This document shows, piece after piece, positions 23,870 to 63,999 of a stretch of DNA of 64,000 nt. Source of the DNA: Proteles cristata cristata. Lineage: Eukaryota; Chordata; Mammalia; Carnivora; Hyaenidae. Every line of letters begins with the position of its first letter. The first letter of the stretch is position 1. The stretch is from NCBI GenBank assembly GCA_017311185.1, contig JAESUZ010000350.1, positions 124,001 through 188,000 of the forward strand. Direction: 5' to 3'. The notes beneath the pieces were generated by a model. The model saw only the letters and a list, made by a program, of their open reading frames with translations, did not search any database and was not told where the DNA came from. A program made the position numbers and the translations under genes.

Positions 23870-24480
23870 GCCATTCTTGACTTCCCTATTACTTTCTTCT
23901 CTACCAAATGGTGATCAGGGACTAGCCCCTGAAACTGAAATATTTACTGTTGTGGCATTTTCTTTATTTCTGTATGCTTTTATTAGTTATTATCTGATCT
24001 CCCTCCCCATCCTTATGCTCAGATCATTCATATTTCCCAAATTGATTCCAGAATATGTGAATGGTTGACAAAATGGAGACGAAAAGAGGTTTAGTCACGA
24101 ACACTATACCTCCCTCAGTTCTTTCCTTCTTTTTCCAGTGGGCAGACACACACACACAGCCAAGAGGCTCTCTCAGAGGCCTCATTGCTATACCCTGAAA
24201 ATGTTTGTCATTCTGTCATGTTACCTCATGATTTTAATTTTGATGTCCTAAAATTCTGTCAGGAAGAAGAAACTGCTTTCCAGAATGTCTGAATTTTATT
24301 TTTGTATGTTTTTACCCTTTAGCAGAATTATGGATTCCTCTGACAACAGTGATGACAATGGGTAAGTTGACTTGACTGATCTGAGTGCCAAAAGGTATTA
24401 GAGACCATTGGTGGCAATAAGAGTTTTCCATAAAAGACTGTAAGCTAGACCATCTTTCTGGGCACAATGATGGTAACGAA
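23870..24480 (+). repeat. First copy of the amplified gene unit (intron plus exon)
   Basis: This stretch aligns block by block with about 41590-42190: 'ggactagcccctgaaactga' with 'ggactggccttgccactga', 'ctccctccccatcctta' with 'cacctccccatcccta', the acacacac run, 'tctgtcatgttacctcatga' with 'tctgtcacctcttgtcatga', then the exon and donor, then 'ggtggcaataagag' with 'agcagcaataaggc'. The copies are therefore duplicates about 17.7 kb apart, most of that distance filled by L1. Confidence 0.7.
24323..24361 (+). CDS. Candidate exon 1 of the repeat-exon gene (39 nt)
   Basis: The exon follows 'gtttttacccttt-ag' and ends at a strong donor GG/gtaagt. It begins with one base that completes a codon and ends with two, so it is phase 2 to phase 2 and reads RIMDSSDNSDDNG when spliced. 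It is the duplicate of the 57-nt exon at 42053 and is 18 nt shorter; both share the block tcctctgac.aca. The peptide is Ser/Asp/Asn rich. I do not recognise the family. It may not be the first exon of the gene, only the first I can see. Confidence 0.45.
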
Positions 24481-25236
24481 GACATTGATTTTTTTCCTAA
24501 TTCATCTGAAATTGATGTAAGTCAGATTGAAGTCTCAGGGAGGGAGCTATTGATGGATCTCTTATTTTTGTGGAGATGTGGCTTGTTCTGAGCTAGGGAG
24601 AAAGTGGAGAACTATGGAAGGGTATCAAAATGTGTGGGAGGGAAGGGCATACAATAATTGATTCTCATTTAAACTATAGAAAAGTACCATGTTTAAAATT
24701 TTTTTTTCCATTTATCACACTTAAATGTTCTAGATTGAAAATATGAATATGTCTTTTGAAATTTTATCAGTCTTTTAAAATAGAGGAATGTAGACTGCTG
24801 GTTAATCTTTAGTTATGTTCCTTTCTCACTTTTGCTGGATGTATTATGATTCCCCATTTTGTTTTTTATCTATGAGTAATGAGACTAATAAATGTGAATG
24901 TGTTTGGCAGATTAAATTTTTCTCATTGAAATTAATTTTGGACTTGTTTCTAAGTAATCTGACTGAGAATATTTGCTGTGATCTGAAAGTATTTTTACTG
25001 TATACTCAAGCCAAGGAAAGAATATATTTTTAAAATCACTTATGTCTGAACTGCAGAAATAGTCATGGGATTTTTCTGTTTCTAACCTGGCCAGTTATTC
25101 AACCATTTAATGTTGTGTCAATGTTGAAGAACAAAGAGTGCTGAAGAGGAAATTAACTGTTGGAATTGTTTTGCTGTCTAGACAAAGATTACATGGAAGA
25201 TAAAGGGCCAACTAATGATGACTACTTCTTGAGATT
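24481..25236. other. Intron-like sequence, no further exon supported
   Basis: Between the first candidate exon and L1-B. An 'ag' at 25180 is followed by an open stretch, but there is no donor and the frame does not join with the phase-2 exon upstream. Confidence 0.4.
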
Positions 25237-25581
25237 ATCCATAATTTCCTTTAAAATTTTTTAAATTCCAGTATAAACATAGTGTTGTTAGTTTCAGATA
25301 GAATTATTGAATCACTATATTGTATATCATTACTTAGTGCTCATCTTGATAAGTGTGCTCATCCTTCACCTATTTCACCTGATACCCCTCTTCCCTGCCA
25401 CAGGTAACCATCATTTTATTCTCTATTTCAGGGTATCTTTTTTGGTTTCTCTCTCTCTCTCTCTCTTTTATTTTTTATTTTTTACTTTGTTCATTTGTTT
25501 TGAACAAATCTTAAATTCCCACATGAGTGAAATCCTAGGGTATTTATCTTTTTCTGACTGACTTATTTCACTTAGCATTAT

Positions 25582-25645
25582 ACCTTCTAGATCAATCCAT
25601 ATTGTTGCAAATGACCTTCTAGATCAATCCATATTGTTGCAAATG
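25582..25645 (-). repeat. Perfect 32-bp tandem duplication inside L1-B
   Basis: The block beginning accttctagatcaatcc and ending gcaaatg is present twice in a row (25582-25613 and 25614-25645) without a mismatch by eye, so the duplication is younger than the L1. Confidence 0.95.
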
Positions 25646-26189
25646 ACAAGGTTGCATCCTTTTATATGGCTGAGTAATATTTCAGTGTGCATGCACGTGT
25701 GTGTGTGTATGTGTGTGTGTGTTTGTATGAGTGTGTATCACCTCTTTATCCATCATGTGTCAATGGGCACTTGGACTGCTTCCATACTTTGGTTATTGTA
25801 AATAATACTGCAAAAACCATAGGGGTTGCATATGTTTTTGAGTTAGTGCTTTCATATTCTTTTAGTAAATGCCCAGTAGTGGAATTGTTAGATAATACAG
25901 TAATTCTATTAATTTTTTGAGGACACTCCATACCGTTTTCCACAGTGGCTGTAGTAGTAGTACATAAGGATTCTCTTTTCCTTCCCGTCCTTGCCAACAC
26001 TTGTTATTTCTTGTGTTTTGATTTTTAGCCATTCATTCTGACAGGTGTGAGGTGATATCTCATTATAGTTTTGATTTGCATTTTCCTGATGATAAATGAT
26101 GTTGAGCACCTTTTCATGTGTCTGTTGACCATCTGTAGGTCTTTTTTTGGAAAAATGTCTATTCAGGTTTTCTGCTCTCCCCCCCTCCT

Positions 26190-26290
26190 TTTTTTTGAGA
26201 GAGGGTGCAAGTGAGCAAGTGGCAAAGGGAGAAAAAGGGGTGGGGAGAGAAAAGCAGGGCTCAAGCTCTCAAGCCCTGCGATCATGATAT
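26190..26290 (-). mobile_element. Truncated SINE in L1-B
   Basis: T run, then 'gagagagggtgcaagtgagc', an AG-rich middle and 'gccctgcgatcatgata' resemble the tail-side half of a minus CAN SINE. The tRNA head is missing. Confidence 0.55.
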
Positions 26291-29200
26291 ATCATAGATT
26301 ACCTTTTTGGTTTGTTGATGGTTTATTTTGCTGTGCAAATCTTTTTTTTTTAAATTGTAGTGTAGTTCTAATAGTTTAATTTTTCTTTTGTTTCTCGTGT
26401 CTGAGGACACATAATTTAGAAAAATGTTACTATGGTCAATGTCACAGAAATTAGTGTCTGTGTTCTCTTCTAGAACTTTTCTGATTTCAGACTTCACATT
26501 TAGATCTCTGATCCCTTGTGAATTTATTTTTGTGAGTGGTATAAGAAAGTGGTCTAGTTTCATTCTTTTGCATGTAGCTGTCCAGTTTTCCCAGTGCCAT
26601 TTGTTGAAGACGGTCTTTTCCCTGTTGTATATTCTTTCCCCTTTGTCAAAGATTAATTGACTATATAATTGTGGGTTTAGTTTTGGCCTCTCTGTTCTGT
26701 TGATCTATGTGTCTATTTTTGTCCCAGTACCAACACTGTTTTGAATACCACGGACTTGCAATATAACCTGAAGTCTGGAGCTGTGATCTCTCCAGTTTTT
26801 TTTTTCAGGATTGCTTTGACTATCAGGGATTATTGGTAGTTCCATAAAAATTTTAGAATTGATTATTCTAGTTCTGTGTAAAATGTTGTTTGTATCTTAA
26901 TAAGGATTGCATTAAATCTGTAAATTGCTTTGCATAATAGACATTTTTAAAGCTTATTTATTTCAAAAAAGAATAATAAAGCCATTTTAGCAATATTTTG
27001 TCCTCCAAACCATGAGCATGGAATATATTTCCATTTGTTTGTGTCTTTTTCAATTTGTTTCATCAGTGTTTTATAACTTTCAGAGTACAGATCTTCTCCT
27101 TGGTTAAGTTTATTCCTAGGTATTTTATGGGTTTTGGTGAAATTGTAAATGGGACTATTCATTTCTCTTTCTGCCGCTTCATTATTAGTATATAGATATG
27201 AAATAGATTTCTGTATATTGATTTGTATCCTGTGACTTTACTGAATTTATAAGTTCTAGTATTTTCTTGCTGGAATCTTTAGGGTTTTCTCTCTACATAT
27301 AGTATCATGTCATCTGAAAATAGTGAGAATTTTACTTCTTCCTTACCAATTTGGATGCCTTTTATTTTTGTCATCGAATTGCTGTGAATAGGACTTGGAA
27401 CACTGTGTTGAATAAGAGTGGTGAGACTGGACATTCTTGTCTTCTTCTTGACCTCAGGGGAAAAGCTTTAAGTTTTTTACCATTGAGTATGATGTTTGCT
27501 GTGGGTTTTCATATATGGCCTTTTTGATGTTGATGTATGTTGCCTCTAACCCTACTTCGTTGAGAGTTTTTAACCATGAACAGATGTTGTACTTTGTCAA
27601 ATGCTTTTTCTGCACCTATGGAAATGATCATATGGTTGTTATCCTTTATTTTACTGATGTTATATATCATGTTGATTGATTTGCAAATATTGAATCATGC
27701 TTGCATCCTGGGAATAAATCCCACTTGATTGTGGTGAATGATTTTTAAAATGTATTGTTGGATTCGGTTTGCTGGTATTTTGTTAAGGATTTTTGCATCT
27801 ATGTTCATCAGAGATATTGACCTGTAGTTCTCATTTCTTGTGGAATCTATCTGATTTTGGTATCAGGGTAATACTGGCCTCCTATAATGAATTTGGAAGT
27901 TTTCCTTTGCAATTTTTTGGAATAGTTTGAGAAGAAGATGCATTTACTCTGTTTAGTAGAATTTGCCTGTGATGCTGTCTTGTCATGGACTTTTGGTTGT
28001 TGGGAGTTTTTTGTACCGATTCAATTTCATTGCTGGTAATCAGTCTGTTCAAATTATCTATTCTTGCTTCAGTTTTGGCAGGTTATATATTTCTAGGAAT
28101 TTATCCATTTTGGGGGGTTATCCAGTATGTCAGCATATGATTTTTCATAATAATCACTTAGAATTGTTTATGTTTCTGTGGTGTTGGCTGTTATTTCTCC
28201 TCTTTCACCTGTGATTTTGTTCCCCCTCTGTTTTTTTTTTTCTTTTGATTAGTCTGGCTAGAGGTGAATCAATTTTGTTGATCTTCTCAAAGAATCAGCT
28301 CCTGGTTTCATTGACCTGTCCTATTTTTAGTTTTTATACCGTTTGTTTCCTCTTTCATCTGGCTTGGGGTTTTTCCCCCCTAGCTCTTTTAGGTGTAATA
28401 TTAGGTTGTCTTGAGATTTTTCTTGCTTCTTGAGATAGAACCGTATTGCTATAAATATCCCTCTTAGAACTGCTTTTGTTACTTCAAAAAATTTTGACTC
28501 CTTGTGTTTTCACTTGCATTGGTCTTCATGTATTTTTAAATTTGATTTCCTCTTTGATTTCTTGGTTGACCAGTTCATTATTTAGTGGCATGTTATTTAA
28601 CCTCCATGTATTTGCGCTCTTTCCAAAATTTTTCTTGTGGTTGACTTCTAGTTTCATAGTGTTGTCGTCAGAAAAGATGCATGCCACGACTGCAGTATTT
28701 TCTAATTTGTTGAGACTAGTTTTGTGGTCTACTATGTGGTCTATCCTGGTGCATGTTTCATGTGCACCTGAAAAGAATATGTATTCTGCTGTTTTAGGAT
28801 GGGGTATTCTGAATATATCTGTTAAGTCTATCTGGTCCAGTATGTCATTCAAAGGCACTGTTTCCTCGTTGATTTTCTGTTTGGATGATTTGTCCATTGA
28901 TGTAAGTGGGTGTTAAAGTCCCTTACTATCATTGTGTTAGTATCAATTTTTTCCTTTATACTCATTATTAACTATTTTATATATTTGGATGCTTTCATGT
29001 TGGGTACCTATTTACAATTGTTACATTTTGGATTGTTCCTGTTGTGCTTATATAGTGTCCTTCTTTGTATCTTGTTATAGTCTGTGTTTTAAAGTCTATT
29101 TCTTCCAAGATTGTCTCTTCAACAAATGGTGTTGGGAAAACTGGACAGCATCTTGCAAAAGAATGAAAGTGGGCCACTTTCCTATACCATTCACAAAAAT

Positions 29201-29538
29201 AAATTTAAAATGGATTAAGAACCTCGATGTGAGACCTAAACCCATAAAAATCCTGGACGAGAACACAGGTAGTAACTTCATTAACATTAGCCCCAGCAAC
29301 ATTTTTCTAGAGACATCTCCTGAGGCAAGGGAAACAAAAGCAAAAATTAACTATTGGGACTATAGCAAAATAAAAAGCTTCTGCACTGCAAAGGGAATAA
29401 TCAACAAAACTAAAAGGCAACCTACGGAATAGGAGAATATACCTGTAAATAATATGTGATAAAAGGTTAGTATCCAAAATATATAAAGAACTGACAAAAC
29501 TCAACACCCAAGAAACAATCCAATTAAAAAATGGGCAG

Positions 29539-29757
29539 GGATGCCTGAATGGCTCAGTTGGCTAGGCATCTAACTCTTGATTTCAGTTAAGGTCATGTTC
29601 TCCTGGTTTGAGAGATTGAGCGCTATTTTGGGCTCTGCACTGACAGTGGAGTCTGCTTGGGATTCTCTCTCCCTCTCCTTCTCACTCTCTGCCCCTCCCC
29701 CATTTGCTCTAGCCCTTTCTCTCTCTCTCTCTCAAACATATAAAAAATAAAAATAAG
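29539..29757 (+). mobile_element. Older CAN SINE in the nested L1
   Basis: Head 'gggatgcctgaatggctcag', 'actcttgatttcagttaagg', CT-rich middle, aaaaataaaaataa tail. It is of the older carnivore type, flanked by the imperfect repeat aaaaatgggcag / aaaaataaggcag. Confidence 0.85.
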
Positions 29758-30212
29758 GCAGAAGACATGGATAGTTACTTTTCCAAAAAATACCTATAGA
29801 TGGCCAGCAGACATATGAAAAGATGCTCGGCATTATTCATCATCAGGAAAATGCAAATCAACATCTTGATGAGATACCATCTCCCACCTGTCAGTGGCTA
29901 AAATCAACAACACAAACAATCAGGTCTTGGTGAAGATATGGAGAAAGAGGAACCCTCCTACATTGTGGATGGGAATGCAAACTGGTGTAGCCACTCTCGA
30001 AAACAGTATGGAGGTTCCTCAAAAGATTAAAATTATAGCTACCATATGATACCATAATTGCACTACTAGGTATTTACCCAATGGATATAAAAATACTAAT
30101 TCAGAGAGATACATGCATCCTGATATTTATAGCAGCATTATTTACAATAGCCAAGATATGGAAGCAGCCCAGTGTCCATAGACTGATGAATGGATAAAGA
30201 AGATGTGGTATA

Positions 30213-30240
30213 TATGTGTGTGTGTGTGAGTGTGTGTGAT
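30213..30240 (+). repeat. (TG)n tract in L1 ORF2 end
   Basis: Imperfect tgtgtg run just after 'gatgtggtatatatg' in the sense L1. Confidence 0.85.
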
Positions 30241-30530
30241 GAATATTACTTGGCCATCAAAAATACTGCAATCTTGGCATTTGTAACAACATGGAAGGAG
30301 CTAGAGAGTATTATGCTAAGTGAAAAATGCCACTTAGAGAAAGCTAAATACCATATGATCTCACTCCTCTGTGTAATTAAGAAATGAAAACAAATGACCA
30401 AGGGGGAAAAAAAAGAGAAGCAAACCAAGAAATGGAATCTTAACGTTAGAGAACAAAGTGATTGTTACCAGAAGGAAGGTGGGAGTGGGTGGGTTAAATA
30501 GGTAAGGGGGATTAAGGAGTGCACTTGTTT

Positions 30531-30993
30531 AAAAAAATTTTTTTTTAATTTAAAAAATTTTTTCAGGGGCGCCTGGGTGGCTTAGTCGGTTAAGCGTCCG
30601 ACTTTTGCTTAGGTCATGATCCCGCGGTTCGTGGGTTCGGGCCCCGCGTCGGGCTCTGTGCTGACTGCCAGCTCAGAGCCTGGAGCCTGTTTCAGTCTGT
30701 GACTCCCTCTCTCTCTGACCCTCCCCTGCTCACGCTGTCTCTCTCTCTCTCTCCTAGAAATAAATTTAAAAAAAATATTAAAAAAAATTTTTTTTCAATG
30801 TTTATTTTTTTTTGAGAGAGACAGAGCATAAGTGGGGTAGGGGCAGAGAGAGACAGAGACACAGAATCTGAAGCAGGCTCTAGGCTCTGAGCTGTCAGCA
30901 CAGAGCCCAATGTGTGGCTCGAGCTTGTGAACTTCAAGATCATGACCTGCGCCGCAGTTGGCCACTTTACCAACTGAGCCACCCAGGTGTCCC
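30531..30993 (-). mobile_element. Minus-strand CAN SINE split by a plus-strand SINE
   Basis: The body is at about 30797-30993 ('gaagcaggctctaggctctg', 'caagatcatgacctgcgc', 'ctgagccacccaggtgtccc') and the T-rich tail lies at 30531-30565. The outer duplication aggagtgcacttgttt (30515-30530) matches aggagtacgtttgttt (30994-31009). Confidence 0.88.
30566..30777 (+). mobile_element. Young felid CAN SINE in the tail of another SINE
   Basis: Near-consensus head 'ggggcgcctgggtggcttag', box B 'gcggttcgtgggttcggg', CT-rich middle, ctcctagaaataaat tail. It is inserted into the T-rich tail of an opposite-strand SINE, forming an inverted pair with no spacer beyond the A/T tails. Confidence 0.93.
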
Positions 30994-31469
30994 AGGAGTA
31001 CGTTTGTTTTGGTGAGCAGCAGGTGATGTATGGAAGTGCTGAATCACTATATTGGATTCCTGAATCTAATATTGTACTGCATGTTAACTAACTGGAATTT
31101 AAGTAAAAACTTAAAGGTATTTTTTCCTACATAAGTATTGCTACTCCTTTCTTTTGACCTCTGTTTACATGATAAATGTTTCTCCTCACTCACTTTCTAT
31201 CTGCAGATGTCTTTAGGTCTGAAATGAGTCTGACAAGCAGACAGGTCTTGTTTTTATCTACTATGTCACCCTATGTTTTTTGCAGTGTTTGGCCATTTAC
31301 ATTCAAAGTAATTATCAATGTGTATTTATTACCATTTTCTTACTTGTTTTGTGGTTGTTTTTGCATTTTTTGGTAATATTTCCTTCCCCTGCTCTATTTC
31401 ATGCTTTTCTGTCTTCAGTGATCTACTCAGATTACTTTCTCCTTATTCTTTGCATAGCTATAACTGGTT

Positions 31470-31897
31470 TTAAATTTTTATTTTTAATTTAACTTACTTA
31501 AATTCAAGTTAGTTAACATGTAGTGCAATATTGGTTTCAGGAGTAGAAGTTAGTGATTTATCACTTACATATAACACCCAGTGCTCATCCCAACAAGTGC
31601 CCTCCTTAATGCCCATCACACATTTAGCCCATCCCTCCACCCACCTCCCCTCTAGCAAACCTCCGTTTGTTCTCTGTATTTAAGAGTCCCTTATAGTTTG
31701 CCTCCCTCTGTTTTTATCTTCTTTTTCCTTCCCTTCCCATAGGTTCATCTGTTTTGTTTCTTAAATTCCACATATGAGTGAAATCAAGATATTTGTTTTT
31801 CTCTGACTTATTTCACTTAGCATAATACACTCTATTTCCATCCATGTTGTTGCCCATGGCAAGATTTCATTCTTTTTGATCACTGTGTAGTATTCCA

Positions 31898-31942
<45 letters not shown>

Positions 31943-32060
31943 ACACCTTCTTTATCCATTCGTCTGCTGATGGACATTTGGGGTCTTTCCATAATTTGGC
32001 TATTGTTGATAGTGATGCTATAAACATTGGGGTGCATGTGCCCCTTTAAATCAGCATTTT
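31470..32060 (-). mobile_element. 5'-truncated L1 nested in L1-B
   Basis: A second antisense L1 3' end starts here ('agttagttaacatgtagtgc', 'aacacccagtgctcatccc') and runs to the ORF2 end (frame 31761-32027 minus with LSTIAKLWKDPKCPSADEW). L1-B 5' sequence resumes at about 32065. The target-site duplication is unclear. Confidence 0.78.
31899..31941 (+). repeat. (CA)n microsatellite
   Basis: About 21 CA units at the ORF2-end position of the nested L1. Confidence 0.95.
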
Positions 32061-33778: not shown

Positions 33779-33874
33779 AACTGCAACTGCTTCTGGAAGA
33801 CTCTTGCCAAAGCTGGGGTGGAGGGGAACTGCAACTGCTTCTGGAAGACTCTTGCCAAAGCTGGGGTGGAGGGG
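33779..33874 (-). repeat. Perfect 48-bp tandem duplication in the L1-B 5' UTR
   Basis: The block starting aactgcaactgcttctgg and ending gagggg is present twice (33779-33826, 33827-33874). It creates a repeated 16-residue frame on the plus strand (ELQLLLEDSCQSWGGG), which is incidental. Confidence 0.93.
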
Positions 33875-34639
33875 GTGGGTCCACAAAAGTGTGGGCGTAG
33901 AGTGCACAGCTGGGTTGGAGTGATTGCACTGTGTTGGTTTCTGCTGGTGTCCTTCTATCTAGGTTGGGGAGTAAGGGATGATATGGTGCCTGCCAATTCT
34001 TTTGTTCTCCTAAAGATCCCCACCCCTCCAGGACAAGCTCTGATATTAGCAAACAAATGTCCTTGCTATATACCTTAGGAGTTTTTCAAACTGCTGCTCC
34101 TATGCTGTACCTCAGTCAGGCTGTTTTGTTACACTGTCTCTTCAAGGGAAGAGGACTCAGGTTCCTAGAGCCTTCCACATCTCAGAGCTAAGTCTGCTGA
34201 TTTTTAATGTTCCAGGTGTTAAGCCCCACTTATTATAAAAATTCAAAAAGTTAGTCTTGTTTTCAAAGCCAAATGTTATGAGGATTTGTCTTACCAGTGC
34301 AGGTCCCCCATGACTTGGGTGCCTGATATGAGGTCTGTCCCTCTCCCTTCTTTGTGACTATGATGTCCCTCCCTCCTATAAGGACAGTTCTGTAGGTCAC
34401 TTTGACTCCCAGCCATGTCTCTGACCTTTTCAATGTGGCCTCTTCTCTACATTTAGCTGTGAAGAGTTTGTTCTTCAAGTCTTCACGTTGTTTTCTGTTA
34501 TGTATACTGGTGTGGGTATTATTTAGGTGTCTGTGGGACATGGTGAGACTAGGATCCTCCTCCTCCACCATCTTCCCTTGGCAATCCATGATTTTTCATT
34601 TTCATGACTTCTTTCATCATCAAACTCAATGAAGAGTTT

Positions 34640-35650: not shown

Positions 35651-35654
35651 TTCT

Positions 35655-35850: not shown

Positions 35851-35989
35851 CACTAATATTCAAAATGAGAGAGGGGAGTAAGAAAAAATAGAAGGACAGG
35901 ATTATGCGGGCAGTGAAAATACTCTGCATGATATTACAATGATGGATCCATGTCACTATATACTTGTCCAAACCTATAGGATGTGCAAC

Positions 35990-36826: not shown

Positions 36827-36827
36827 C

Positions 36828-41579: not shown

Positions 41580-42290
41580 TCTTGTTTCTCCCAAATAGCA
41601 CCTAGGGACTGGCCTTGCCACTGAAATTCTCATTGTTCTGGCCTTTCTTTTCATTAAATCTGTATCCTTTTATCAACCATTACCTCGATCCACCTCCCCA
41701 TCCCTACACTCTCATGTCTGTCTGTCTGTCTCTTCCTACATTTATTCAACAGCTACCAGAATTGCAGAGAAATTGGGAAAGAAGCAAGGATATTAATCAT
41801 CATTGCTGCTTCTCTCTTGCTTTCTTCTTACTATTTCTAGTAAATATGTGCATGTATACACACACACACTGGAGGCTGGCTTAGAGGTCTCACTGGGGTA
41901 ACTCAAATCTGTTGCTTCAGTTTCTGTCACCTCTTGTCATGATTTGTGATGTGTGATTTACTTTTCTTGTCTGAAATTCCTTTCAGGAAAGAGCATGATT
42001 TCCTTCCATGTTGTCTGATTTTATTTTTTGTGTATTTTTCCCCCTTTGACAGACATAACAATGCTCCAGTGCCCACTTTGGTGTCCTCTGACCACAATAT
42101 CAACAATAGGTGAGTTGATTTTTGGTCATCTGGTGGGAAAACCACTTGGAAGTATTAGCAGCAATAAGGCTTGTTCATGATAGCTTGTCAGCTTCTGTAT
42201 GTAACTTTTTCTGCTTTGGATCTAGATAGAAAAAGAAGGAACAGATCAAAGAGGGAGAACATTTACTATGAGTCTGTTTGTGAGCCTTAG
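41580..42290 (+). repeat. Second copy of the amplified gene unit
   Basis: Homologous to 23870-24480. It carries the 57-nt exon and then an intron tract 'cttctgtatgtaactttttc' + 'tttggatctagatagaaa' that recurs near 43075, 50930, 51910, 52690, 59590, 60790, 61975 and 62970. That shared tract shows the later units are relatives of this one. Confidence 0.7.
42053..42109 (+). CDS. Candidate exon 2 (57 nt)
   Basis: The acceptor is 'ttcccccctttgac-ag' (pyrimidine rich) and the donor AATAG/gtgagt. The exon is phase 2 at both ends, so it can be included or skipped without changing frame. Reading: HNNAPVPTLVSSDHNINN plus a split codon. It is paralogous to the 39-nt exon at 24323, mainly through the SSD.N core. 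The other two frames are less useful, since only this one matches the phase of the later exons. Function unknown. Confidence 0.5.
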
Positions 42291-42912: not shown

Positions 42913-42966
42913 TTCTGACTGGAATGAATTGACATCAGTAACTGATATGGAGGTCATCAGTAAAAG
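42913..42966 (+). pseudogene. Unit exon with lost donor (54 nt)
   Basis: After 'cattttatccttt-ag' comes a 54-nt block homologous to the good exons, reading SDWNELTSVTDMEVISK in the shared phase-2 frame, the only stop-free one. At the position where the others have gtgag this copy has AAAAG/atgac, so there is no GT donor. Reading on gives Lys-Arg then an immediate TGA. It is therefore a dead exon, or at most a terminal exon of a truncated isoform. The tyrosine of its relatives is also missing. Confidence 0.5.
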
Positions 42967-48594: not shown

Positions 48595-48652
48595 TTCCTC
48601 TAGTGTACTTTTAACTTCAGCTATTGGATTTTTCATTCTGATTGGTTCTTTT

Positions 48653-48845: not shown

Positions 48846-50644
48846 CTGATGGATTCTTTTTTATGGTTTCTTTCTCTTTCTTGAAGGTCTCTCTAAAGTC
48901 CTACCTTCTTTTCTCATGTTCAATGAGTATCTTTATTACCATTACTTTAAATTCTCTATTAGACATGTTATTTATCTCTGTATTTAGCTCTTTTGCAGTA
49001 ATTTTTGTCCTTTTGTTTTTCATTTGGGACATATTCTTCTGTCTCCTCATTTGTCTTCTCTGAGTCTGTTTCTATGTGTTGGGAAAGGAGCTACATCTCT
49101 TGCTCTTGAAAGAAGAGGTCCCGTAGTATGCTGCAGAGGTATCCCCTGGTCACCAGAACTTGGCACCTGAAGGGTGTCTTCTATGTGTTGCATGTGCCCT
49201 ACTGTTGAGGCTGAGCTGTGTTTGCCTTCAGCCTAGTCATGTGCAATAGCTCTATTTGCCTATTGTGGGCATGGTTTATTACTTGCGTTGTTAGTAGGCC
49301 AGTCTGTGGCCATCATGGGCTTCAGGAAAGTCAGACCGGGCATTTGCCAGAGTTGCTAGAGCAACAAACTGCACAGCTCTACCTTGGACAACAAACTGGA
49401 CAACTCTACCTTGTTGTTCCCTGAGAAGCTTTTGTTGGTGGGCAGGGCCTACAGTCAGACCAGATGGGTGCACTTGAACTAGTGTGTGTGTGGTTATCTT
49501 TCCCTCTCCCCAGGGCAGGAGTCACTTTGGAGTGGTGCTGGTCCCTGTCAGGACTGCTTGCATCCTGCTTGTGACACAGTCTTAGAGGGACTCCTGCTGA
49601 GGGTAGGTAGGTCTGCAGGAGAATACGGGAGCGGGGTGCTTGGTCCACAACGGTCCAGTATGGGAAGGGACCTGCAGGCACTCTGAGAAAACTCTTGTCT
49701 AGCCTGAGATGGTGGGGGAGCATCAGCGGGAGAATGTGGGTGCAGGGCACACTGTTAGCAAGCTAGGCGGCGAGGGTTTGTGCTGCACTGGTTCCTGCAG
49801 GTATCCATGTAACTTGGCTGAGGGATGGGGAAGGGAAATGGAACCTGCCAGCACTTCTGTTCCTGGAGAAGTCTCCCAAAGGTCCCTGTCCCTCCAGCAC
49901 ATGCTCTCAGATGAGTAAGTAAATCTTCTTCCTGTATGTCCCAGGTGTTTTACAAACTGCTGTGTTTATGCTCTATCTTGGGAAGGTGTTGGTTGTGCTG
50001 TCTTTTTAAGGGCAGGTACTTCATATTGCCTTCCAGCTCTCCCAGAGCCAAGCCCACTGATTTTCAAAGTTCTAGGTGTTCAGTCCCACTGATTGTAAGA
50101 ACTAGTAAGGTTGATAACCACCCCCCACCCCCCACCAGGATTTTAAAGCCTAATATTCTGGTTATTTGTCTTTCCTGTGCATGTTTCCCATGCCTGGGTG
50201 CCTGGTGTGAGGTTTTCTCCTCTACCCTCTGTGCCCACCACATCCCTCCCTCCCATGAGGAGTCCTGTGGGTCCATTTAGCTTCTGACTGTGACTCTGCC
50301 CTTCTTACCCTCTTTGATGTGGCCTCTTCCTATATTTATGAGTGAAGAGTCTCCTCAGCCAGTGTTGGGTTATTTTGGGGGCTATTTATACTGATGTGGG
50401 TGTTATCTAAGTTTATCTATGGAATGAAGTGAGCTCAGGATCCTTGTTTTCCACCATCTTGCCCAGAAGTCTAACACCTTATTTCTAATAAAGAAATGAT
50501 ATACCAGGATCAATTTACTGATATCTACATGAGTGTTTAAAGATCAACCAGTTCATAAGTATAGAGTAATTATAGTTATTTGGACAAAAAAAATGGTCTA
50601 GAATTATATGTGGTATCTGATCATGTACCTTTTCAATCCTTTAG

Positions 50645-50698
50645 CCCAAACCCTAATGAACTGACATCAGAAACCTACGAGGAACACGACAATGAAAT
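50645..50698 (+). CDS. Candidate repeat exon, 54 nt
   Basis: The acceptor is 'ccttttcaatccttt-ag' and the donor GAAAT/gtgaga. Phase 2 at both ends. The only stop-free frame reads PNPNELTSETYEEHDNE, ending in a split codon AT. The motif Y-E-E follows the pattern of its relatives at 51685, 52406, 53437 and 60293. The upstream intron was split by L1-D, but the local splice signals (including a possible branch site 'tctgatcatg' about 30 nt upstream) are intact. Role unknown. Confidence 0.6.
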
Positions 50699-51684: not shown

Positions 51685-51738
51685 CCATGTCCAGAATGAA
51701 TTGACATTAGAAAACTATGAGGAACCCACCAATGAAAT
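51685..51738 (+). CDS. Candidate repeat exon, 54 nt
   Basis: The acceptor is 'cctttttgtttctgt-ag' and the donor GAAAT/gtgaga. Phase 2/2; the other two frames stop within the exon. Reading: HVQNELTLENYEEPTNE. It is nearly identical to the exon at 53437, differing by two bases (one Val/Ala change, one silent Leu change). Both are flanked by near-identical introns, so they are recent sister exons about 1.75 kb apart. Confidence 0.62.
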
Positions 51739-52405: not shown

Positions 52406-52459
52406 CACAGCCCTGACTGAATGGAAATCAGACAACTATGAGGAAGTCTCTAGTAAAAT
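52406..52459 (+). CDS. Candidate repeat exon, 54 nt
   Basis: The acceptor is 'cctctttaacctttt-ag' and the donor AAAAT/gtgaga. Phase 2/2, and the only stop-free frame reads TALTEWKSDNYEEVSSK. Y-E-E-V resembles the Y-E-E-I class of SH2 ligand known from Src-family kinases, but whether the peptide is cytoplasmic is unknown. Its sister at 60293 differs by four bases; a more distant sister is at 62695. Confidence 0.62.
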
Positions 52460-53436: not shown

Positions 53437-53490
53437 CCATGCCCAGAATGAATTGACACTAGAAAACTATGAGGAACCCACCAATGAAAT
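53437..53490 (+). CDS. Candidate repeat exon, 54 nt
   Basis: The acceptor is 'cctttttgattcttt-ag' and the donor GAAAT/gtgaga. Phase 2/2, reading HAQNELTLENYEEPTNE. It is the near-twin of the exon at 51685. L1-E begins 123 bp after its donor and expands the following intron from roughly 0.7 kb to 6.8 kb. Confidence 0.62.
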
Positions 53491-55519: not shown

Positions 55520-55608
55520 TTAATTCTTTAAAAGAACCAGCTCCTAGTTTTGCTGTTCTGTTTGTTAATTCTTTAAAAGAACCAGCTCCTAGTTTTGCTG
55601 TTCTGTTC
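55520..55608 (-). repeat. Perfect 45-bp tandem duplication in L1-E
   Basis: The block starting ttaattctttaaaagaacc is repeated at 55520 and 55565 without a mismatch until near the end of the second copy. Confidence 0.95.
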
Positions 55609-57619
55609 TACTGTTTTTTTTTTTATTTCAATATCATTGATTTCTTCTCTAATCTTCATTATTTCCTTTCTTCTGCTGATTTAAGGCTTTATTTGCTTTT
55701 GTTTTTCCAGCTCGTTTAGGTGTAATGTTAGGTTGTGTATTTGAGACATTACTGTCTTCTTTAGGAAGGCCTGGATTGCTATATACTTCCCTCTTCTGAC
55801 TGCCTTTGCTGCACCCCAAAGATTTGGGACTATTGTATTTTCATTTTCACTGGCTTCCATGTACTTTTTAATTTCCTCTTTCTTAGTTAACTCATTAATT
55901 TTTTAGTAGGATATTCTTTAATCTCCAAGTATTCATGGTTTTTCCATATTTTTTTCTTGTGGTTGATTTCAAATTTTGTATGAGCTTGATCTTTTTGTAC
56001 TTTTCCTGGGCTGATTTATGACCCAATGCATGATCTATTCTGGAAATGATCCATGTTTTATTGAAAAGAATGTGTATTCCCCTTGCTTAAGGATGAAATG
56101 TTATCAATATATCTGTTATGTCCATCTGGTCCAGTGTGTCATTCAAGTCGTGGTTTCCTTGTTGATTTTCTGCTTAGGTGATCTGTCCATTGCTGTAAGT
56201 GGGGTGTTAAAGTCCCTTAATATTATTGTTATTATCAATGAGTTTCTTTATGTTTGTTATTAATTGATTTATATATTTGGGTGTCTTCAAGTTAGGGGCA
56301 CAAATATTTACAATTGTTTGATCTTGATGGATAAACCCCTTAATTATGATTAGGTTAGACCCCTTCTTCATTTCTTGTTAGCTTTTGGATTCAAATATAG
56401 TTTGTCTGATATAGTAGGGGTACTCCAGCTTTCTTTTGACCTCCATTAGCTTGATAGATGGTTCTCCATCCCCTCACTTTCACTTTTAAAAGGCACTTTT
56501 AGACATACAGGTGACTTTAGATCTAAAACGGGTTTCTTGTAGGCAGCAAATAGATGTATCTTGTTGTTGTTTTTTTAATCCATTTTGATACTGTCTTTTG
56601 ATTGGCTCATTTAGTCCATTTACATTCAGAGTGATTATTGAAAGATATGAATTTAGTTCCATTGTGTTGCCTGTAGAGTTGGTGTTTCTGGTGATGCTCT
56701 CTGGTCATTTTTAAACTTTGTTCCATTTGGTGTTTTGTTTTTCTCCACTCAAAGAGTTCCCATTCAAATTTCTTATAGGGCTGATTTATGGTCATGAACT
56801 CCTTTAGATTTTGTTTGTCTGGAAAATTCTTTATCTCTCCTTCTATTCTGAATGACAGCCTTGCTGGATAAAATATTCTTCACTGTGTATTTTTCCCATT
56901 TAGCACATTTAATATATCCTGCCACTCTATTCTGACCTGCCAAGTTTCTGTTGGAAGATCTGCAAACTTGATTTGTTTCCCTTGTAGGTTAAGGACTTTT
57001 CTTCCTTTGCTGCTTTCATAATTCTTTACTTGTTTGTGTATTTTGTGAATTTGACTATGATATGTCTTGGTGATGACTGGCTTTTGCTGAATTTAATAGA
57101 GGTTCTCTGTGCTTCTTGGATTTAGATGTATGTCCTTCTCCATATTAGGGAAGTTTTCAGCTATAATTTGCTCACATAAATGTTCTGTCACTTTTTCTCT
57201 TTCTTCATCTTCTGGGACTCCTATGATACAAATGTTATTCCTCTTTAGTAGGTCACTGAGTTCACTAAGTCTTGTATTGTGATCTTTGCCTTTGTTTCTC
57301 TCTTCTTTTCAGCTTCATTATTTTCCACAATTTTATCTCCTAAATCACTGATTCACTGCTCTGCTTTATCCAGCCTTGCTATCATGGCATCCATTTGAAA
57401 TTGCACTTCGGTTATAGCATTTTTAATTTAGGGCTCACAAGATTTTAGTTTAGAGATTCTCTACGGTCTTCTATGCTTTCTACAACCCCAGATGGTATCC
57501 TTATAATTGTAGTTTTAAATTCTAATTGAGACATTTTACTGATATCTGCTTTGATTAAATCCCTGGCCATGACTTCTACTGCCTGTTCCTTCTTTTTGGG
57601 TGAGTTTCTCTATCTTGTC

Positions 57620-57950
57620 ATTTTATCCATAAAAGAAAAGAAAAAATAAAGAAAAGAAACAAACAAAAACAAAGAAAAAAACCCAAAAAATAAAATTAAA
57701 AAAAAACACAAAAACCCTGTATCCTGGGTGTGTTTTGGGCTGCTTGTTTAGAGTCCAGGCCCCAAAATAAAACATAATATAATGAAATGAAATGAAAACA
57801 AATGATAAAATAAAAAATAAGAGAATATGCATATATAAAAATGTATACATAAAAATGTAAATAAAAACAATAAAAATTTAAAAAGGAATTGAAAATAAGA
57901 AAATAAATGAAAAAAGTTAATAATAAAAAATAAAGAATAAAAGTAAAATG
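57620..57950 (+). repeat. A-rich low-complexity tract in L1-E
   Basis: Long A-rich runs with scattered G, C and T (aaagaaaaaataaagaaaag; aaaataaaaaataagag), interrupted at 57716-57765. The minus-strand frames over it are poly-Phe/Tyr artefacts. Confidence 0.85.
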
Positions 57951-58204
57951 GAATTTAGATCCTATGTTTCTTAGAGCTGAAGCCTGCCCAGTAGACTTTG
58001 TGCAAGTGAGTTGTTTGTGCTGGTCTTCTAGAGGAGGAGCCTGCTGTATGAATTCTATGGCTGATTTGTTTGAGTGGAAATGCACCTCTAGGGTGCAAAG
58101 GAGCAGAGCTTGGCATAAGTGGCTCTGGCCTCCACTGGGTGGTGGTGTTTTGCTCCCTGAAGTCTTTTGGCTCTGAAGAATGGAATAAAAATTGCAGCAC
58201 CCTG

Positions 58205-58880
58205 GCGAGGATGTGGAGAAACGGGCACCCTCCTACACTGTTGGTGGGAATGTAAACTGGTACAGCCCCTCTGGAAAACAGTGTGGAGGTTCCTCAGGAA
58301 ACTAACAATAGAACTCCCCTAGGACCCAGCAATAGCACTGCTAGGAATTTACCCAAGGGATACAGAAATGCTGAGGCATAGGAGCACATGACCCCAATGT
58401 TCATAGCACTCTCCACAATAGCTAAAACATGGAAAGAGCCTAAGTGTCCATCAACAGATGAATGGATCAAGAAGATGTGGTTTATCTATACCATGGAATA
58501 CTACATGGCAATGAGAAACAATGAAATCTGGCCATGTGTAGCAACATGGATGGACCTTGAGGGTGTTATGCTGAGCGAAATAAGTCAGGCAGAGAAGGAC
58601 AAATATCATATGTGTGCACGTATAGGAGGATTAGGAGGAACTTAACTGAGGAACAAGGGGGAGAAGAAGGGCGGAAATGGTGGGGGAAAGGGAGAGAGGC
58701 AAACCATGAGAGACTCTTGAATGCTGACAAAAACTGAGGACTGATGGATGTGGGGGGGAGGGGGGGATGGGCATAGAGGAGGACACTTGTGGGGATGAGC
58801 ACTGAGTGTTATGTGGAAACTAATTTGACAACAAACTATTCGTAAAAAAAAAAAAAAAAGAAAGAAAGAAAAAGAAAATA
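58205..58880 (+). mobile_element. Young felid L1 3' fragment, sense, nested in L1-E
   Basis: The ORF2 C-terminal frame (58388-58645, with [19 protein letters not shown]) is followed by the 3' UTR 'gagactcttgaatgctgac' and an A tail ending in (aaag)n. The repeat gcagcaccctg is identical at 58194-58204 and 58881-58891. It is the longest copy of the young L1 family in this window. Confidence 0.92.
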
Positions 58881-59544
58881 GCAGCACCCTGCTCTATAGC
58901 CCTGGAGCTAAATGTTTGCACCATGTATTCTTCAGGCAAACCTCACAGAAGAGCAATTAATCATTCTTCTTGTGTCTCCCGGTTTCCATCCTGTGCCAGC
59001 CTGTGGGAAAAAAGCAGTGGCATGAATGTACCGCTATTCAGAGTTTATGTCAGAGCAGACAGCTAGCACCCGTGTTTGCTCTCCTCAGCCAGAGTGAGTC
59101 CCCTCTCTTATGCCTGGAAAGAGTACAGCGTGTTGGCATGACCTGTCTTTCTTGTGACCCAAGGGATCCTCAGACCACACTGTCACTTCTTGAATTCTGT
59201 CCCACTTCACCACTTGAGCACCTTTATGCCAGGCACTTCCTCCATGGTAGCAGACTGCTAAAAGTTCAGATTTTGTGCTCCCTACTTATAACTTCCCACT
59301 AGCCTCCCTCAGCTCCCTCCCCAAGCTGTATCCAGAACAACATCTCTCCCATTAAATTCTCCATGAGTCCTACCTCCCAAAGGGCGGTCACTTTTCTACT
59401 TGTAGTCTTTCAATTTTTGTTCTCTCAAACCTGTTTGATTTCTTTGGTTTCAGAATGATTTGATAAATATCTATATGTGTTCAGGGACAAGACAAGCTTA
59501 GGGTCTCCCTAATCATCATCTTAACTGCTCCCTGGATTGTCTTC

Positions 59545-60292
59545 AATATGGCTTCTAAGTTCTCTCACTGTAGTATATGTAGGTAATTTTCTTTCTTTCT
59601 TTTAGATTTAGTTGAATAAAAGGGGAAGACATAAGGGGAATGCTTCCTACCTTGAGTGGATTTGTTTCCCTTACTAGTAGCCAAACCCTTAGATGAGAGG
59701 AAGGCAAAGAAAGAAGGGCCTCAGAACCAGGAATTTAAATGAATAAGGGCAATGGCCGCCTCCAAACTGAAGTTGAATTTGAAATCAACTCTACCACAAA
59801 AGGCTGTTACACAATTAGAGTGATAATAAAGAACTTATAGATTGATACATTATTATTTATAGGCCTAAGATAGTCATTAGCATCTCATATAGAGCCTTAC
59901 TTCTTTCTTAAAAAAATTTTTTTAATGTTTGCTTAGTTTTGAGAGACATATAGACAGAGCATGAACAGTAGAGGGGCAGAGAGGGAGAACAGAAAATGAA
60001 GCAAGCTCCAGCCTTTGAACTGTCAGCACAGAGCCCACTGTGGGGCTTAAACTCCTGAACCATGACATCATGACCTAAGCCAAAGTCAGATGCTCAACCA
60101 GCTGAGCCACACAAGCACCCCAAGCCTCATTTCTAATAAAAAAAATGACCTACCAGGTTCAATTAGGCGGTAAATAGGAATTTTTAAAGATTGACCAGTT
60201 CATAACTTAAAGCAATTGTAGTTATTTAAATGCAGAAAAGTCAGTCTAGTATTACACATGGTGTCTGACTATGTACCTCTTTAATCCTTTAG
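59545..60292 (+). repeat. Unit intron after L1-E
   Basis: Resumes as unit intron ('ttctaagttctctcactgta', 'gtaggtaattttctttcttt'), closely like 51870-52405. Contains a SINE. Confidence 0.7.
59904..60122 (-). mobile_element. CAN SINE in one unit copy only
   Basis: Minus-strand SINE ('gcaagctccagcctttgaac', 'catcatgacctaagcc', 'ctgagccacacaagcacccc') in the block that elsewhere reads 'cctcatttctaataaa'. The flanks agccttacttct / agcctcatttct match. The copies at 52235 and 62515 lack it. Confidence 0.88.
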
Positions 60293-60346
60293 CACGGCCC
60301 TGACTGAATGGAAATCAGACAACTATGAGGAAGTCCCCAGGAAAAT
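60293..60346 (+). CDS. Candidate repeat exon, 54 nt
   Basis: The acceptor is 'cctctttaatccttt-ag' and the donor AAAAT/gtgaga. Phase 2/2, only stop-free frame TALTEWKSDNYEEVPRK. It differs from the exon at 52406 by four bases and from its tandem-duplicate counterpart at 62695 by nine, even though its near flanks are almost identical to those of 62695. It keeps Y-E-E-V. Confidence 0.62.
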
Positions 60347-60389
60347 GTGAGATATAAATGAATAAAGATATATATATATGCACATATGT

Positions 60390-60609
60390 GGGGCGCCTGG
60401 GTGGCTTAGTCGGTTAAGCGTCCGACTTTCGCTTAGGTCATGATCTCGCTGTTCGTGGGTTCGAGCCCCGCGTCAGGTTCTGTGCTGACTGCCAGCTCGG
60501 AGCCTGGAGCCTGTTTCAGTCTGTGACTCCCTCTCTTTCTGACCCTCCCCTGCTCACGCTGTCTCTCTCTCTCTCCTAGAAATAAATTAAAAAAAAAAAA
60601 AGTAAATAA
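60390..60609 (+). mobile_element. Young felid CAN SINE, perfect 16-bp duplication
   Basis: Near-consensus head, box B 'cgctgttcgtgggttcgag', CT-rich middle and A-rich tail. The repeat atatatgcacatatgt is identical at 60374-60389 and 60610-60625. It is absent from the homologous site in the copy near 62790, so it inserted after the duplication or was never copied. Confidence 0.95.
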
Positions 60610-61337
60610 ATATATGCACATATGTACGTATATACTTATATCCACACAGATACACAAAGACACGTACACAAACATAAATACTGTGAGTAAAAGGGATGAG
60701 GTTTCCAAATGCATTCATAGAAGCATCCATGACAATTCAGTGTCTTTGACTGTTTCTGAACCTTCTCGCTGTAGCACCTGTAGATAACTTCCTGTCTGTC
60801 TGGATCTAGTTGGATCAAAGAGGAGCAGGTTGTAAGAGGAACGCTTCCTCCTCCTGGGGACTGGCAGCCAAAACCTTTTGGAGATTTCCAGAGTGCCTGT
60901 GTATGAGTCCTACTAGACTGGGTGAAGAGGGCACAGACTCCTACTAAGACAAAGAGGAGGTGGCAGTAGGCGGGGGACAGAGGAGCGGTGCTAACTGAGC
61001 CTGGATCGCTCACCCTGCAAGTGCTCTGCCACCACGTGGGGCTGCTGCCCCAAGTCCAAACCCACAGTCACGTGGAGGGGCCTCTGCCTCTGGCCTGCAG
61101 TTATTTGATGCTGTCTGAGGGCAGAGAAGGCCAGCATAAGAGGGTAAAAGGATGAAGGAAGGACCTGACAGCAGAACATTTGGTGGGAAAGAAGGATGTA
61201 TACCTGCAAAATGAGGTTGGATTGAAATAATTTCCCCCATGAAAGGCTGGTGCACACTGACCCGGCGTCAGTAGCAAAGATCTGTACCTAACTCTTGAAT
61301 TATTCACATTTTTGCTAGGTCTAAAATACAGAAGACA

Positions 61338-61575
61338 GGCACACCTGGGTAGCCCAGTGGGTTAATAGTCCAACTTTGGCTCAGGTCGTGATCTCCCTGT
61401 TCACGAGTTTGAGGCCCACCTTGGGTTGTGCGCTGATGGCTCCGAGCCTGGAGCCTGCTTCAGATTCTGTGTCTTCCTCTCTCTCTGACCCTTCCCTGCT
61501 CACACTCTGCTTGTCTCTCTCTCTCTTTCTCTCTCTTTCTGTCTCTCTCTCTCTCAAAATAAATAAACATTAAAA
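61338..61575 (+). mobile_element. CAN SINE shared by both duplicates (left copy)
   Basis: 'aggcacacctgggtagccca', 'ggctcaggtcgtgatctccc', CT-rich middle, aaaataaataaacatt tail. Its counterpart at 63524-63761 shows it was present before the 2186-bp duplication. Confidence 0.9.
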
Positions 61576-61759
61576 AATTTTAAATACATATTACGAACCT
61601 AGGGAAAATGAGATACTAGGTTTCAGTAACTGATTTGCATGTGAGTTTCCTAAATATCAACCAGTTTATAAGTTTAAGAATAATTGTGACCAATTTGCAC
61701 TGAATCAGTAAGTCTGCAAGTCGTGTGGTGTCTTACTAGGTCTATTTTTAATCTTTTAG

Positions 61760-61813
61760 CAGTGCCATGAATGAATGGACAGCAGTATCCTCTGAAGGGC
61801 TCTCCAATGCAAA
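61760..61813 (+). CDS. Candidate repeat exon, 54 nt, tyrosine-less type
   Basis: The acceptor is 'ctatttttaatcttt-tag' and the donor GCAAA/gtgagc. Phase 2/2, only stop-free frame SAMNEWTAVSSEGLSNA plus a split codon. It is homologous to the others (shared N/T-E-W or N-E-L core near residue 5) but has Ser-Ser in place of the Tyr motif. Its duplicate at 63946 is identical over all 54 bases. Confidence 0.6.
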
Positions 61814-62694
61814 GTGAGCTATGGTGAATCCATCCATACATAGATATGTATCTGTATACACACACACACAGGATTTGGGATGGTCTCTCTCAGGATCACT
61901 CATGGGATAACAAAATTCTGTTAATAAGAGAAAACAAAATGCCGTATCTGAAGTCTTCTCATCGTAAGCTTCTATATGTAATACTCTTTATCTTTTGACT
62001 ATAGGTGGAAAACAGATAAAGAGGTCCTAGAGGGAGTCTTTTTAATCCTAGTATTTGTCACTCTTGATTATTGTGTGTGAGATTCTACTAGAATGGCCAA
62101 GGAGGAGGACATCTTATTCAGAGCAAAGAGGTGTCAGCAGAAAGAATGGAGCTAATAGACCCTGGATCTGTCCCTCACCCTCCAGAGCTCTGCCCCCATG
62201 TGAAGCTGGTGCCCCAAACCCACCACCATACTGGAAGGAGTCTCTGCCTCAGGTCTTTAGTCACTTGGCTCTGTCTGCGAGGCAGAAAAGACCTCTAGGA
62301 AGCATGAAAGTAAGCAAGTGATGGAGGGACTTGCCAATCATGCAATTAGTTGGGGTTGAAGAGATATGTATCTATAAACCAAAGTTGAATTTGAAATAAA
62401 TTCCACCGCAAAAAGGCTGTTACACACTGAGTTTAGAGACATAGTAAAGAACTCTTACAGATTGATGCATTGCATTATTCATTTTTAGGCCTAAGATAGT
62501 CATTACCATCTCATATAAAGCCTCATTTCTGTTTAAAAAAAAAATCACCTACTAGGTTCAATTAGGTGGTAAATGCCTGAATTTTTAAAGGTTGACCAGT
62601 TCATAACTATGGAGCAATTGCAGTTATTTAAATGGAGAAAAGTCAGCCTAGTATTACACATGGTGTCTGACTGTGTACCTCTTTAATCTTTTAG
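61814..62694 (+). repeat. Unit intron between the two right-end exons
   Basis: Contains a short CA run (61859-61870), the 'gtaatactctttatcttttg' tract, the conserved intron block near 62185, and the pre-exon block 'catctcatataaagcctcat'. It is the cleanest copy because no element interrupts it. Confidence 0.7.
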
Positions 62695-62748
62695 CACGGC
62701 CTTGAGTGATTGGAAATCAGACAGCTATGTGGAAGTCATCAGTAAAAC
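62695..62748 (+). CDS. Candidate repeat exon, 54 nt, diverged
   Basis: The acceptor is 'cctctttaatctttt-ag' and the donor AAAAC/gtgaga. Phase 2/2, only stop-free frame TALSDWKSDSYVEVISK. Compared with the exon at 60293 it has nine base changes, only one silent, while the adjoining 34 bp of donor side are the same. The tyrosine is kept but the following E-E is now V-E. Confidence 0.62.
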
Positions 62749-62768
62749 GTGAGATATAAATGAATAAA

Positions 62769-62815
62769 GATATATATATATATGGATATATATATATATA
62801 TGCATATATGTATGT
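62769..62815 (+). repeat. (TA)n-rich tract
   Basis: Alternating TA with occasional G, just after the exon donor, longer here than in the sister copy near 60370. Such tracts follow several exons of the array. Confidence 0.85.
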
Positions 62816-63945
62816 ATATACTTACATCCACACAGATGCACAAAGACATATACAAAAACATAAATACTGTGAGTGAAAGGGATGAGGTTTCCAAATGCAT
62901 TCATAGGAGCATCCATGACAATTCAGTGTCTTTGACTGTTTCTGAACCTTCTCACTGTTGCACATGTAGATAACTTCCTGTCTGTCTGGATCTAGTTGGA
63001 TCAAAGAGGAGCAGGTTGTAAGAGGAACGCTTCCTCCTCCTGGGGACTGGCAGCCAAAACCTTTTGGAGATTTCCAGAGTGCCTGAGTATGAGTCCTACT
63101 AGACTGGGTGAAGAGGGCACAGACTCCTACTAAGACAAAGAGGAGGTGGCAGTAGGCGGGGGACAGAGGAGCGGTGCTAACTGAGCCTGGATCGCTCACC
63201 CTGCAAGTGCTCTGCCACCATGTGGGGCTGCTGCCCCAAGTCCAAACCCACAGTCACGTGGAGGGGCCTCTGCCTCTGGCCTGCAGTTATTTGATGCTAT
63301 CTGAGGCCAGAGAAGGCCAGCATAAGAGGGTAAAAGGGTGAAGGGAGGACCTGACAGCAGAACATTTGGCGGGAAAGAAGGATGTATACCTGCAAAATGA
63401 GGTTGGATTGAAATAATTTCCCCCATGAAAGGCTGGTGCACACTGACCCGGCGTCAGTAGCAAAGATCTGTACCTAACTCTTGAATTATTCACATTTTTG
63501 CTAGGTCTAAAATACAGAAGACAGGCACACCTGGGTAGCCCAGTGGGTTAATAGTCCAACTTTGGCTCAGGTCGTGATCTCCCTGTTCATGAGTTTGAGG
63601 CCCACCTTGGGTTGTGCGCTGATGGCTCCGAGCCTGGAGCCTGCTTCAGATTCTGTGTCTTCCTCTCTCTCTGACCCTTCCCTGCTCACACTCTGCTTGT
63701 CTCTCTCTCTCTTTCTCTCTTTTTCTGTCTCTCTCTCTCTCAAAATAAATAAACATTAAAAAATTTTAAATACATATTACGAACCTAGGAAAAATGAGCT
63801 ACTAGGTTTCAGTAACTGATTTGCATGTGAGTTTCCTAAATATCAACCAGTTTATAAGTTTAAGAATAATTGTGACCAATTTGCACTGAATCAGTAAGTC
63901 TGCAAGTCGTGTGGTGTCTTACTAGGTCTATTTTTAATCTTTTAG
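62816..63945 (+). repeat. Right copy of the 2186-bp duplication
   Basis: Matches 60630-61759 without the SINE at 60390. Contains the shared SINE at 63524-63761 and the conserved intron block. Confidence 0.92.
63524..63761 (+). mobile_element. CAN SINE shared by both duplicates (right copy)
   Basis: Same insertion as 61338-61575, copied with the duplicated segment; it differs by only a few bases. Confidence 0.9.
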
Positions 63946-63999
63946 CAGTGCCATGAATGAATGGACAGCAGTATCCTCTGAAGGGCTCTCCAATGCAAA
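63946..63999 (+). CDS. Candidate repeat exon, 54 nt, at the window edge
   Basis: Identical to the exon at 61760 over 54 of 54 bases, with the same acceptor. The window ends one base into its expected donor. The gene and the exon array therefore probably continue to the right. Confidence 0.58.

Follow-up and report, generated by a model that had tools for sequence, protein, structure and literature searches.

The analysis covered a stretch of 64,000 nucleotides (nt) from Proteles cristata cristata (contig JAESUZ010000350.1, positions 124,001 to 188,000), called the window below. Its right-hand part held an array of very short exons, with candidate coding exons further upstream. Judged by protein comparisons, the window very probably represents the 5' part of a hyaenid gene of the TPTE/TPTE2 family, encoding a voltage-sensor phosphatase (VSP) with an expandable array of cassette exons. 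The coordinates of all features are compiled in Table 1.

The array was delimited with an nhmmer profile built from eight copies (seven intact copies and the decayed copy at 42913) and searched against the whole window. Nine array copies were detected, every one on the + strand, with E-values between 6.6e-41 and 6.7e-24. The best match beyond these nine had an E-value of 0.67, and three minus-strand matches ranged from 6.1 to 12. Eight intact copies were located within 50645-63999 on the + strand. All eight were exactly 54 nt long with an AG acceptor. The donor gtgag was present in 7/7 readable copies; in copy 8 the window stops at the first g of the donor. The phase-2 frame was open in 8/8 intact copies, with stops in both remaining frames. 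The original prediction, which had been made from the DNA letters, described the exons in these same terms of length, common splice sites, phase and frame pattern, and was correct in each. It had let the array begin at 24323. The array proved real at 50645-63999, but the feature at 24323 is a different exon of 39 nt. Array exons 1-8 belonged to four related unit types in the order e f h f h g h g, types f, h and g each being present two or three times. The idea of one duplicated exon was therefore right as to duplication, but not as to a single kind of unit.

Table 1. Features located in the window.
Feature	Position	Strand	Description	Evidence
First coding exon (coding part)	21214..21272	+	MQGLKRNPLYLWLMHQKHN; donor gtaagt; phase 2 end	tblastn to cat exon 1
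39-nt exon	24323..24361	+	RIMDSSDNSDDN(G); phase 2/2; AG acceptor, gtaagt donor	likeness to felid RIMDSSDNSDDHG
57-nt exon c	42053..42109	+	HNNAPVPTLVSSDHNINN; phase 2/2; AG acceptor, gtgagt donor	tblastn
Copy d, 54 nt	42913..42966	+	open frame SDWNELTSVTDMEVISK; acceptor kept, donor atgaca	nhmmer, E 6.7e-24
First exon of public hyena gene model	49709..49914	+		P0029 residues 1-68 and 2 bases of codon 69
Array exon 1, type e	50645..50698	+	PNPNELTSETYEEHDNE	nhmmer; present in P0029
Array exon 2, type f	51685..51738	+	HVQNELTLENYEEPTNE	nhmmer; absent from P0029; type f in felid proteins
Array exon 3, type h	52406..52459	+	TALTEWKSDNYEEVSSK	nhmmer; present in P0029
Array exon 4, type f	53437..53490	+	HAQNELTLENYEEPTNE	nhmmer; absent from P0029
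Array exon 5, type h	60293..60346	+	TALTEWKSDNYEEVPRK	nhmmer; present in P0029
Array exon 6, type g	61760..61813	+	SAMNEWTAVSSEGLSNA	nhmmer; absent from P0029; g units in felid, wolf and bear proteins
Array exon 7, type h	62695..62748	+	TALSDWKSDSYVEVISK	nhmmer; present in P0029
Array exon 8, type g	63946..63999	+	sequence equal to exon 6; donor cut by window end	nhmmer; absent from P0029
Tandem duplication	60603..64000	+	period 2186 base pairs (bp); 60603-62788 repeated from 62789	self-comparison

The gene was identified through P0029, a public Hyaena hyaena protein annotated as TPTE2-like. The exon at 49709-49914 joined to array exons 1, 3, 5 and 7 encoded 140/140 residues (1-140) of this protein, which settled the gene identity. 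With the Pfam and structure matches of P0029, the gene that could not be named from the letters alone was assigned to the TPTE/TPTE2 family, and the exact agreement with a hyena protein over these 140 residues corrected the earlier assumption of a cat as the source species, pointing to the striped hyena or a very close hyaenid. The exons downstream of residue 140 lie beyond the window, and the domain body was read from the P0029 protein. Pfam reported PTEN_C2 with an E-value of 2.4e-35. Ion_trans at residues 155-280 (E 1.2e-6) and the phosphatase families Tc-R-P, PTP-SAK and Y_phosphatase were above cut-off. The HCKGGKGR loop, of the PTEN-type form CX5R, was intact at residue 399. Residues 143-606 aligned to PDB 9c49, a TPTE2 structure, with an E-value of 3.9e-185, and residues 275-606 matched the Ciona VSP structure 3awf (E 5.6e-120). 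The voltage sensor matched the Ciona VSP structures 4g7v (E 1.6e-20) and 4g80. The array units lay outside every matched solved structure, and the 54-nt exons are predicted to encode the stretch N-terminal to the first transmembrane helix. The joined array units gave no Pfam match above cut-off and no match among the solved structures searched. An approximate human TPTE2 start with 18-residue repeats found no match in PDB sequences.

A search of the 18-residue units against mammalian proteins, as proposed together with the original prediction, detected related units in felids, hyena, wolf, bears, sea lion and whales. The comparison proteins are, judging by their names, computer gene models. 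The first search, with the joined units, returned four proteins, with E-values of 2.7e-36 for the Iriomote leopard cat and 8.3e-14 for the brown bear, and also two whale TPTE2-like proteins (E 2.1e-3 and 1.4e-2). The second search matched 23 proteins, felid without exception. The third matched 38 proteins, 28 of them at E below 1e-3, from felids, hyena, a sea lion, a wolf, a bear and the pygmy sperm whale; the remaining 10/38 were ruminant or whale proteins with E-values from 3.9e-3 to 2.1. Unit number varied among the predicted proteins of felids, wolf, bears, sea lion and whales. By the same automatic labels, the cat unit order was e f h f h g j, then k, and the cat protein P0005 differed from the window at many unit positions. 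These labels are approximate, as units of other lengths were missed (e in whale, f in bear) and part of exon 2 was marked as c in the window and in the wolf protein. Type f units occurred in the models of felids, sea lion and brown bear. The sea lion protein held three f units, two identical and the third with a single change, and the wolf protein held two identical g units. Unit d was labelled in both bear proteins and in 0/23 felid proteins. Copy d of the window has lost its donor and is probably a dead exon at this locus; the loss of unit d may predate the split of cat and hyena.

Growth of the array was visible in the self-comparison of the window. The blocks 60603-61814 and 62789-64000 were 97.9% identical over 1212 bp without a gap. 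The 2186-bp tandem duplication appears to carry a g exon and an h exon. Because the window stops within the second copy, another h exon is predicted near 64881. Older likeness was found around exons 2 and 4 (89.4% identity over 577 bp), around exons 3 and 5 (86.9% over 260 bp) and between 60122-60379 and 62518-62781 (88.6%). The step from 88.6% to 97.9% identity was located at an insertion resembling a short interspersed element (SINE) after exon 5, and fits an unequal crossover close by. At 97.9% identity, the duplication indicates recent array growth. It could also be an assembly artefact, two haplotypes of one animal placed in a row so that exons 7 and 8 are spurious, and misjoined haplotypes might equally leave 1212 bp at 97.9% without a gap and exons 6 and 8 identical. 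This explanation is regarded as quite improbable. The order g-h-g was also present in the wolf and bear predicted proteins, and about 25 differences in 1212 bp (2.1%) would be high for the haplotypes of one hyena, which are expected to differ by less. With symmetric exons, this duplication and related units in other carnivores, the view of an expandable modular segment built by duplicating an exon with its intron was upheld.

Some long minus-strand open reading frames (ORFs) at 54000-59000, for example 54349-55068, resembled pieces of long interspersed element 1 (LINE-1) by eye; array exons 4 and 5 lie on either side of this stretch, about 7 kilobases apart. tRNA-derived SINE-like copies were found at 30566-30751, 60396-60574, 61344-61526 and 63530-63712, and ARAGORN called tRNA-Lys (30571) and tRNA-Glu (60395) on such copies. 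The 60396 copy is located in the intron after exon 5, apparently without an equivalent at the corresponding site behind exon 7.

Traces of homogenisation were found among the felid proteins. Both f copies carried L-I-L in tiger, jaguar and lion, and L-T-L in Felis and Neofelis. At the protein level, the T to I change shared by the f copies appears as a pattern of within-species homogenisation. The paired g units of the wolf and the f units of the sea lion fit homogenisation as well. Species-specific changes were common to the copies of types f and g, not to those of h.

Retention of the exons was assessed with a neutral simulation that treats the flanks as neutral, with 20,000 runs at each of two rates of insertions and deletions (indels). 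The flanks of type g were very distant from those of other types (distances up to ~1), which leaves the tree length uncertain, and a halved tree, run at the lower indel rate only, was used as a guard. All eight frames were open in ~6% of neutral runs and in 18% with the halved tree. Because copies inherit their stop pattern by duplication, open frames alone are weaker proof than first thought. Frame, length and splice sites were retained together in 0/20,000 runs at each indel rate and at a frequency of 0.0013 with the halved tree. Only this joint retention was rare under neutrality.

Use of the array exons as cassettes was examined in predicted felid isoforms, comprising 14 within-species pairs from 19 proteins of five felids, with the jaguar protein P0015 left out. 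Ten of the 14 pairs differed by exactly one 18-residue unit, namely f2 in four pairs, b in four and f1 in two. One further pair differed by exon 2 plus b, and three differed nearer the C-terminal end. Predicted isoforms that lacked a single f unit came from tiger, lion, jaguar and clouded leopard. As far as gene models can tell, this suggests cassette use of the array exons.

The upstream coding exons were located by comparing the window with felid, bear and whale proteins. The exon at 21214 was 80% alike to cat exon 1 over 20 residues (E 2.8e-9), and the start of a whale TPTE2-like protein resembled the one encoded here. The 39-nt exon was supported by likeness and splice sites, tblastn alone being weak (E 1.6). 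Exon c showed 65-72% likeness to bear and felid proteins with E-values from 7e-5 to 3e-4. Felid exon b (DDLDEFISGISNEATNER) was not found by tblastn in the expected interval 24362-42052; it is also absent from several predicted felid isoforms. The public hyena model begins at 49709-49914 and not at the conserved start exon at 21214. The bases following this exon are gtaagtaa (GTAAGTAA), a GT donor, and it had no counterpart in the felid proteins compared. The start at 49709-49914 could reflect an alternative promoter or an artefact of annotation.

A receptor tail of the CD163/WC1 type, suggested by the 24323 exon (MDSSDNSDDN), was considered for the locus and dropped. A tblastn search with a human CD163 tail gave chance-level matches (best E 0.22), and no SRCR match occurred in 166 scanned + strand ORFs. 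This Pfam scan covered 166 of the 167 listed + strand ORFs of at least 57 residues, 28901-29077 being left out together with 56 + strand ORFs of 50-56 residues and 233 minus-strand ORFs of at least 50 residues. Within that set it returned nothing convincing, the best match being TRAM_LAG1_CLN8 in one ORF (E 0.001).

Several results weigh against the reading as a VSP gene with a maintained, expandable array. Exon divergence was only modestly lower than flank divergence, with 25/270 vs 118/831 differences over five pooled pairs (Fisher p 0.037, the pairs being non-independent). Between exons 3 and 7, the exon differed more (10/54) than the flank (29/176); exons 6 and 8, one of the five pairs, showed zero differences. 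The ratio of nonsynonymous to synonymous rates (dN/dS) was above 1 in 24 of 35 defined pairs, mostly between unit types, with copy d included and 51 nt available for each comparison. Between copies of one type, ratios of 0.21, 0.23, 0.41 and 1.81 were obtained from the same 51 nt each. These values could indicate diversification between types with constraint within types, or noise, not simple constraint, and dN/dS between copies was rejected as evidence for being too noisy at such a length. For type h, homogenisation was not borne out, as two h units within a felid differed from each other more than a given unit did between felids. Ion_trans was detected in P0029 but not reported for cat P0005 or tiger P0012 in the same Pfam scan, and DSPc was below its cut-off in all three proteins. 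Array exons 2, 4, 6 and 8, like the start exon at 21214, are missing from the hyena model and are treated as candidate exons in hyena. In PMC13039310, TPTE2 is stated to exist only in primates. The carnivore gene may be a single TPTE orthologue, TPTE2-like being a database label. The gene is called TPTE/TPTE2 family here.

The omission of array exons from the hyena model raises the question of which cassettes are live. Only e and h might be used in hyena, with f and g as passengers that are normally skipped or already dead. Such a division agrees with the composition e, h, h, h of the hyena model and with the felid isoforms that lack single f units, yet the models of felids, sea lion and brown bear do contain f units, and those of felids, wolf and bears contain g units. 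In the window, 4/4 copies of types f and g kept an intact frame and acceptor, and gtgag was present in 3/3 readable donors. A restriction to e and h is a possibility that we consider rather unlikely. Human TPTE families include many copies and pseudogenes, and the whole locus could likewise be a duplicated, decaying TPTE2 copy with the real gene elsewhere in the hyena genome. The lost donor of copy d and the missing exon b would agree with decay, but unit d was lacking in the labelled felid proteins too. The exons at 21214, 24323 and 42053 and the eight array exons keep their frame and all splice sites readable in the window, and the public model at the locus continues into intact catalytic and C2 domains. 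Decay of the entire locus therefore appears very improbable.

For the TPTE/TPTE2-family gene, a role of the array can be proposed with caution. Among the 144 residues of the eight joined units, 31 were acidic and 7 basic; tyrosine occurred six times and cysteine not at all. In the VSP family, a position ahead of the first helix is expected to lie in the cytosol, and a tyrosine followed by two acidic residues resembles Src-type SH2 sites. With phase-2 symmetry, duplication could add a copy, and splicing could skip one, leaving the downstream voltage sensor, phosphatase and C2 domains undisturbed. Unequal crossing-over and conversion between similar introns would alter copy number and homogenise some unit types, and each transcript would take in a variable subset of cassettes. 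The product would be an acidic, probably disordered cytosolic tail of tunable length with repeated tyrosine-acidic sites. This tail may influence where the phosphatase resides or which partners it binds, male germ cells, in which the family is expressed, being the likeliest setting. Our best guess on function, held tentatively and at less than even odds, is a tail of variable length for docking or targeting. According to PMC13095418, mammalian TPTE and TPTE2 are found in the Golgi of spermatogenic cells and carry a histidine at the end of S4. PMC13039310 describes expression of human and mouse TPTE-family genes in testis, with mouse TPTE being testis-specific and its loss impairing male fertility.

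Human TPTE/TPTE2 (TPIP) has several isoforms by alternative splicing, according to PMC3229583, and the hyena protein of this locus shares its voltage sensor, PTEN-like phosphatase and C2 domain. The array is larger than in the 12 labelled whale and ruminant proteins, with eight intact 54-nt units in the window alone vs two to five units of any type by the approximate labels. Ciona VSP (Ci-VSP) has the same domain body as P0029, whereas neither it nor the other solved structures searched matched the unit array. Tandem arrays of short exons are already known, for example in titin PEVK, where, according to PMC6469411, short repetitive exons are alternatively spliced and vary in length across mammals. 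Titin is a different gene with a different sequence, and PEVK forms a molecular spring segment, whereas the array here forms the end of a membrane phosphatase. No description of a carnivore TPTE2 exon array was found in the literature searched, a set with most subscription papers outside it, which does not establish absence from print.

What first appeared to be an orphan exon array can now be named, and has a plausible purpose. Four of the eight array exons, together with the conserved start exon, are absent from the public hyena gene model. In carnivores, the cytosolic end of the VSP may be a fast-evolving cassette system, shaped by repeated duplication of unit types, some within-species homogenisation and combinatorial splicing. 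How many tyrosine-acidic docking sites a germ-cell phosphoinositide phosphatase carries would then vary between species and perhaps between individuals, with sexual selection as a possible driver; the scenario is speculative, and we give it a low probability. The locus illustrates repeated exon duplication at one end of a voltage-sensor phosphatase, in a family whose native mammalian role is still being worked out.

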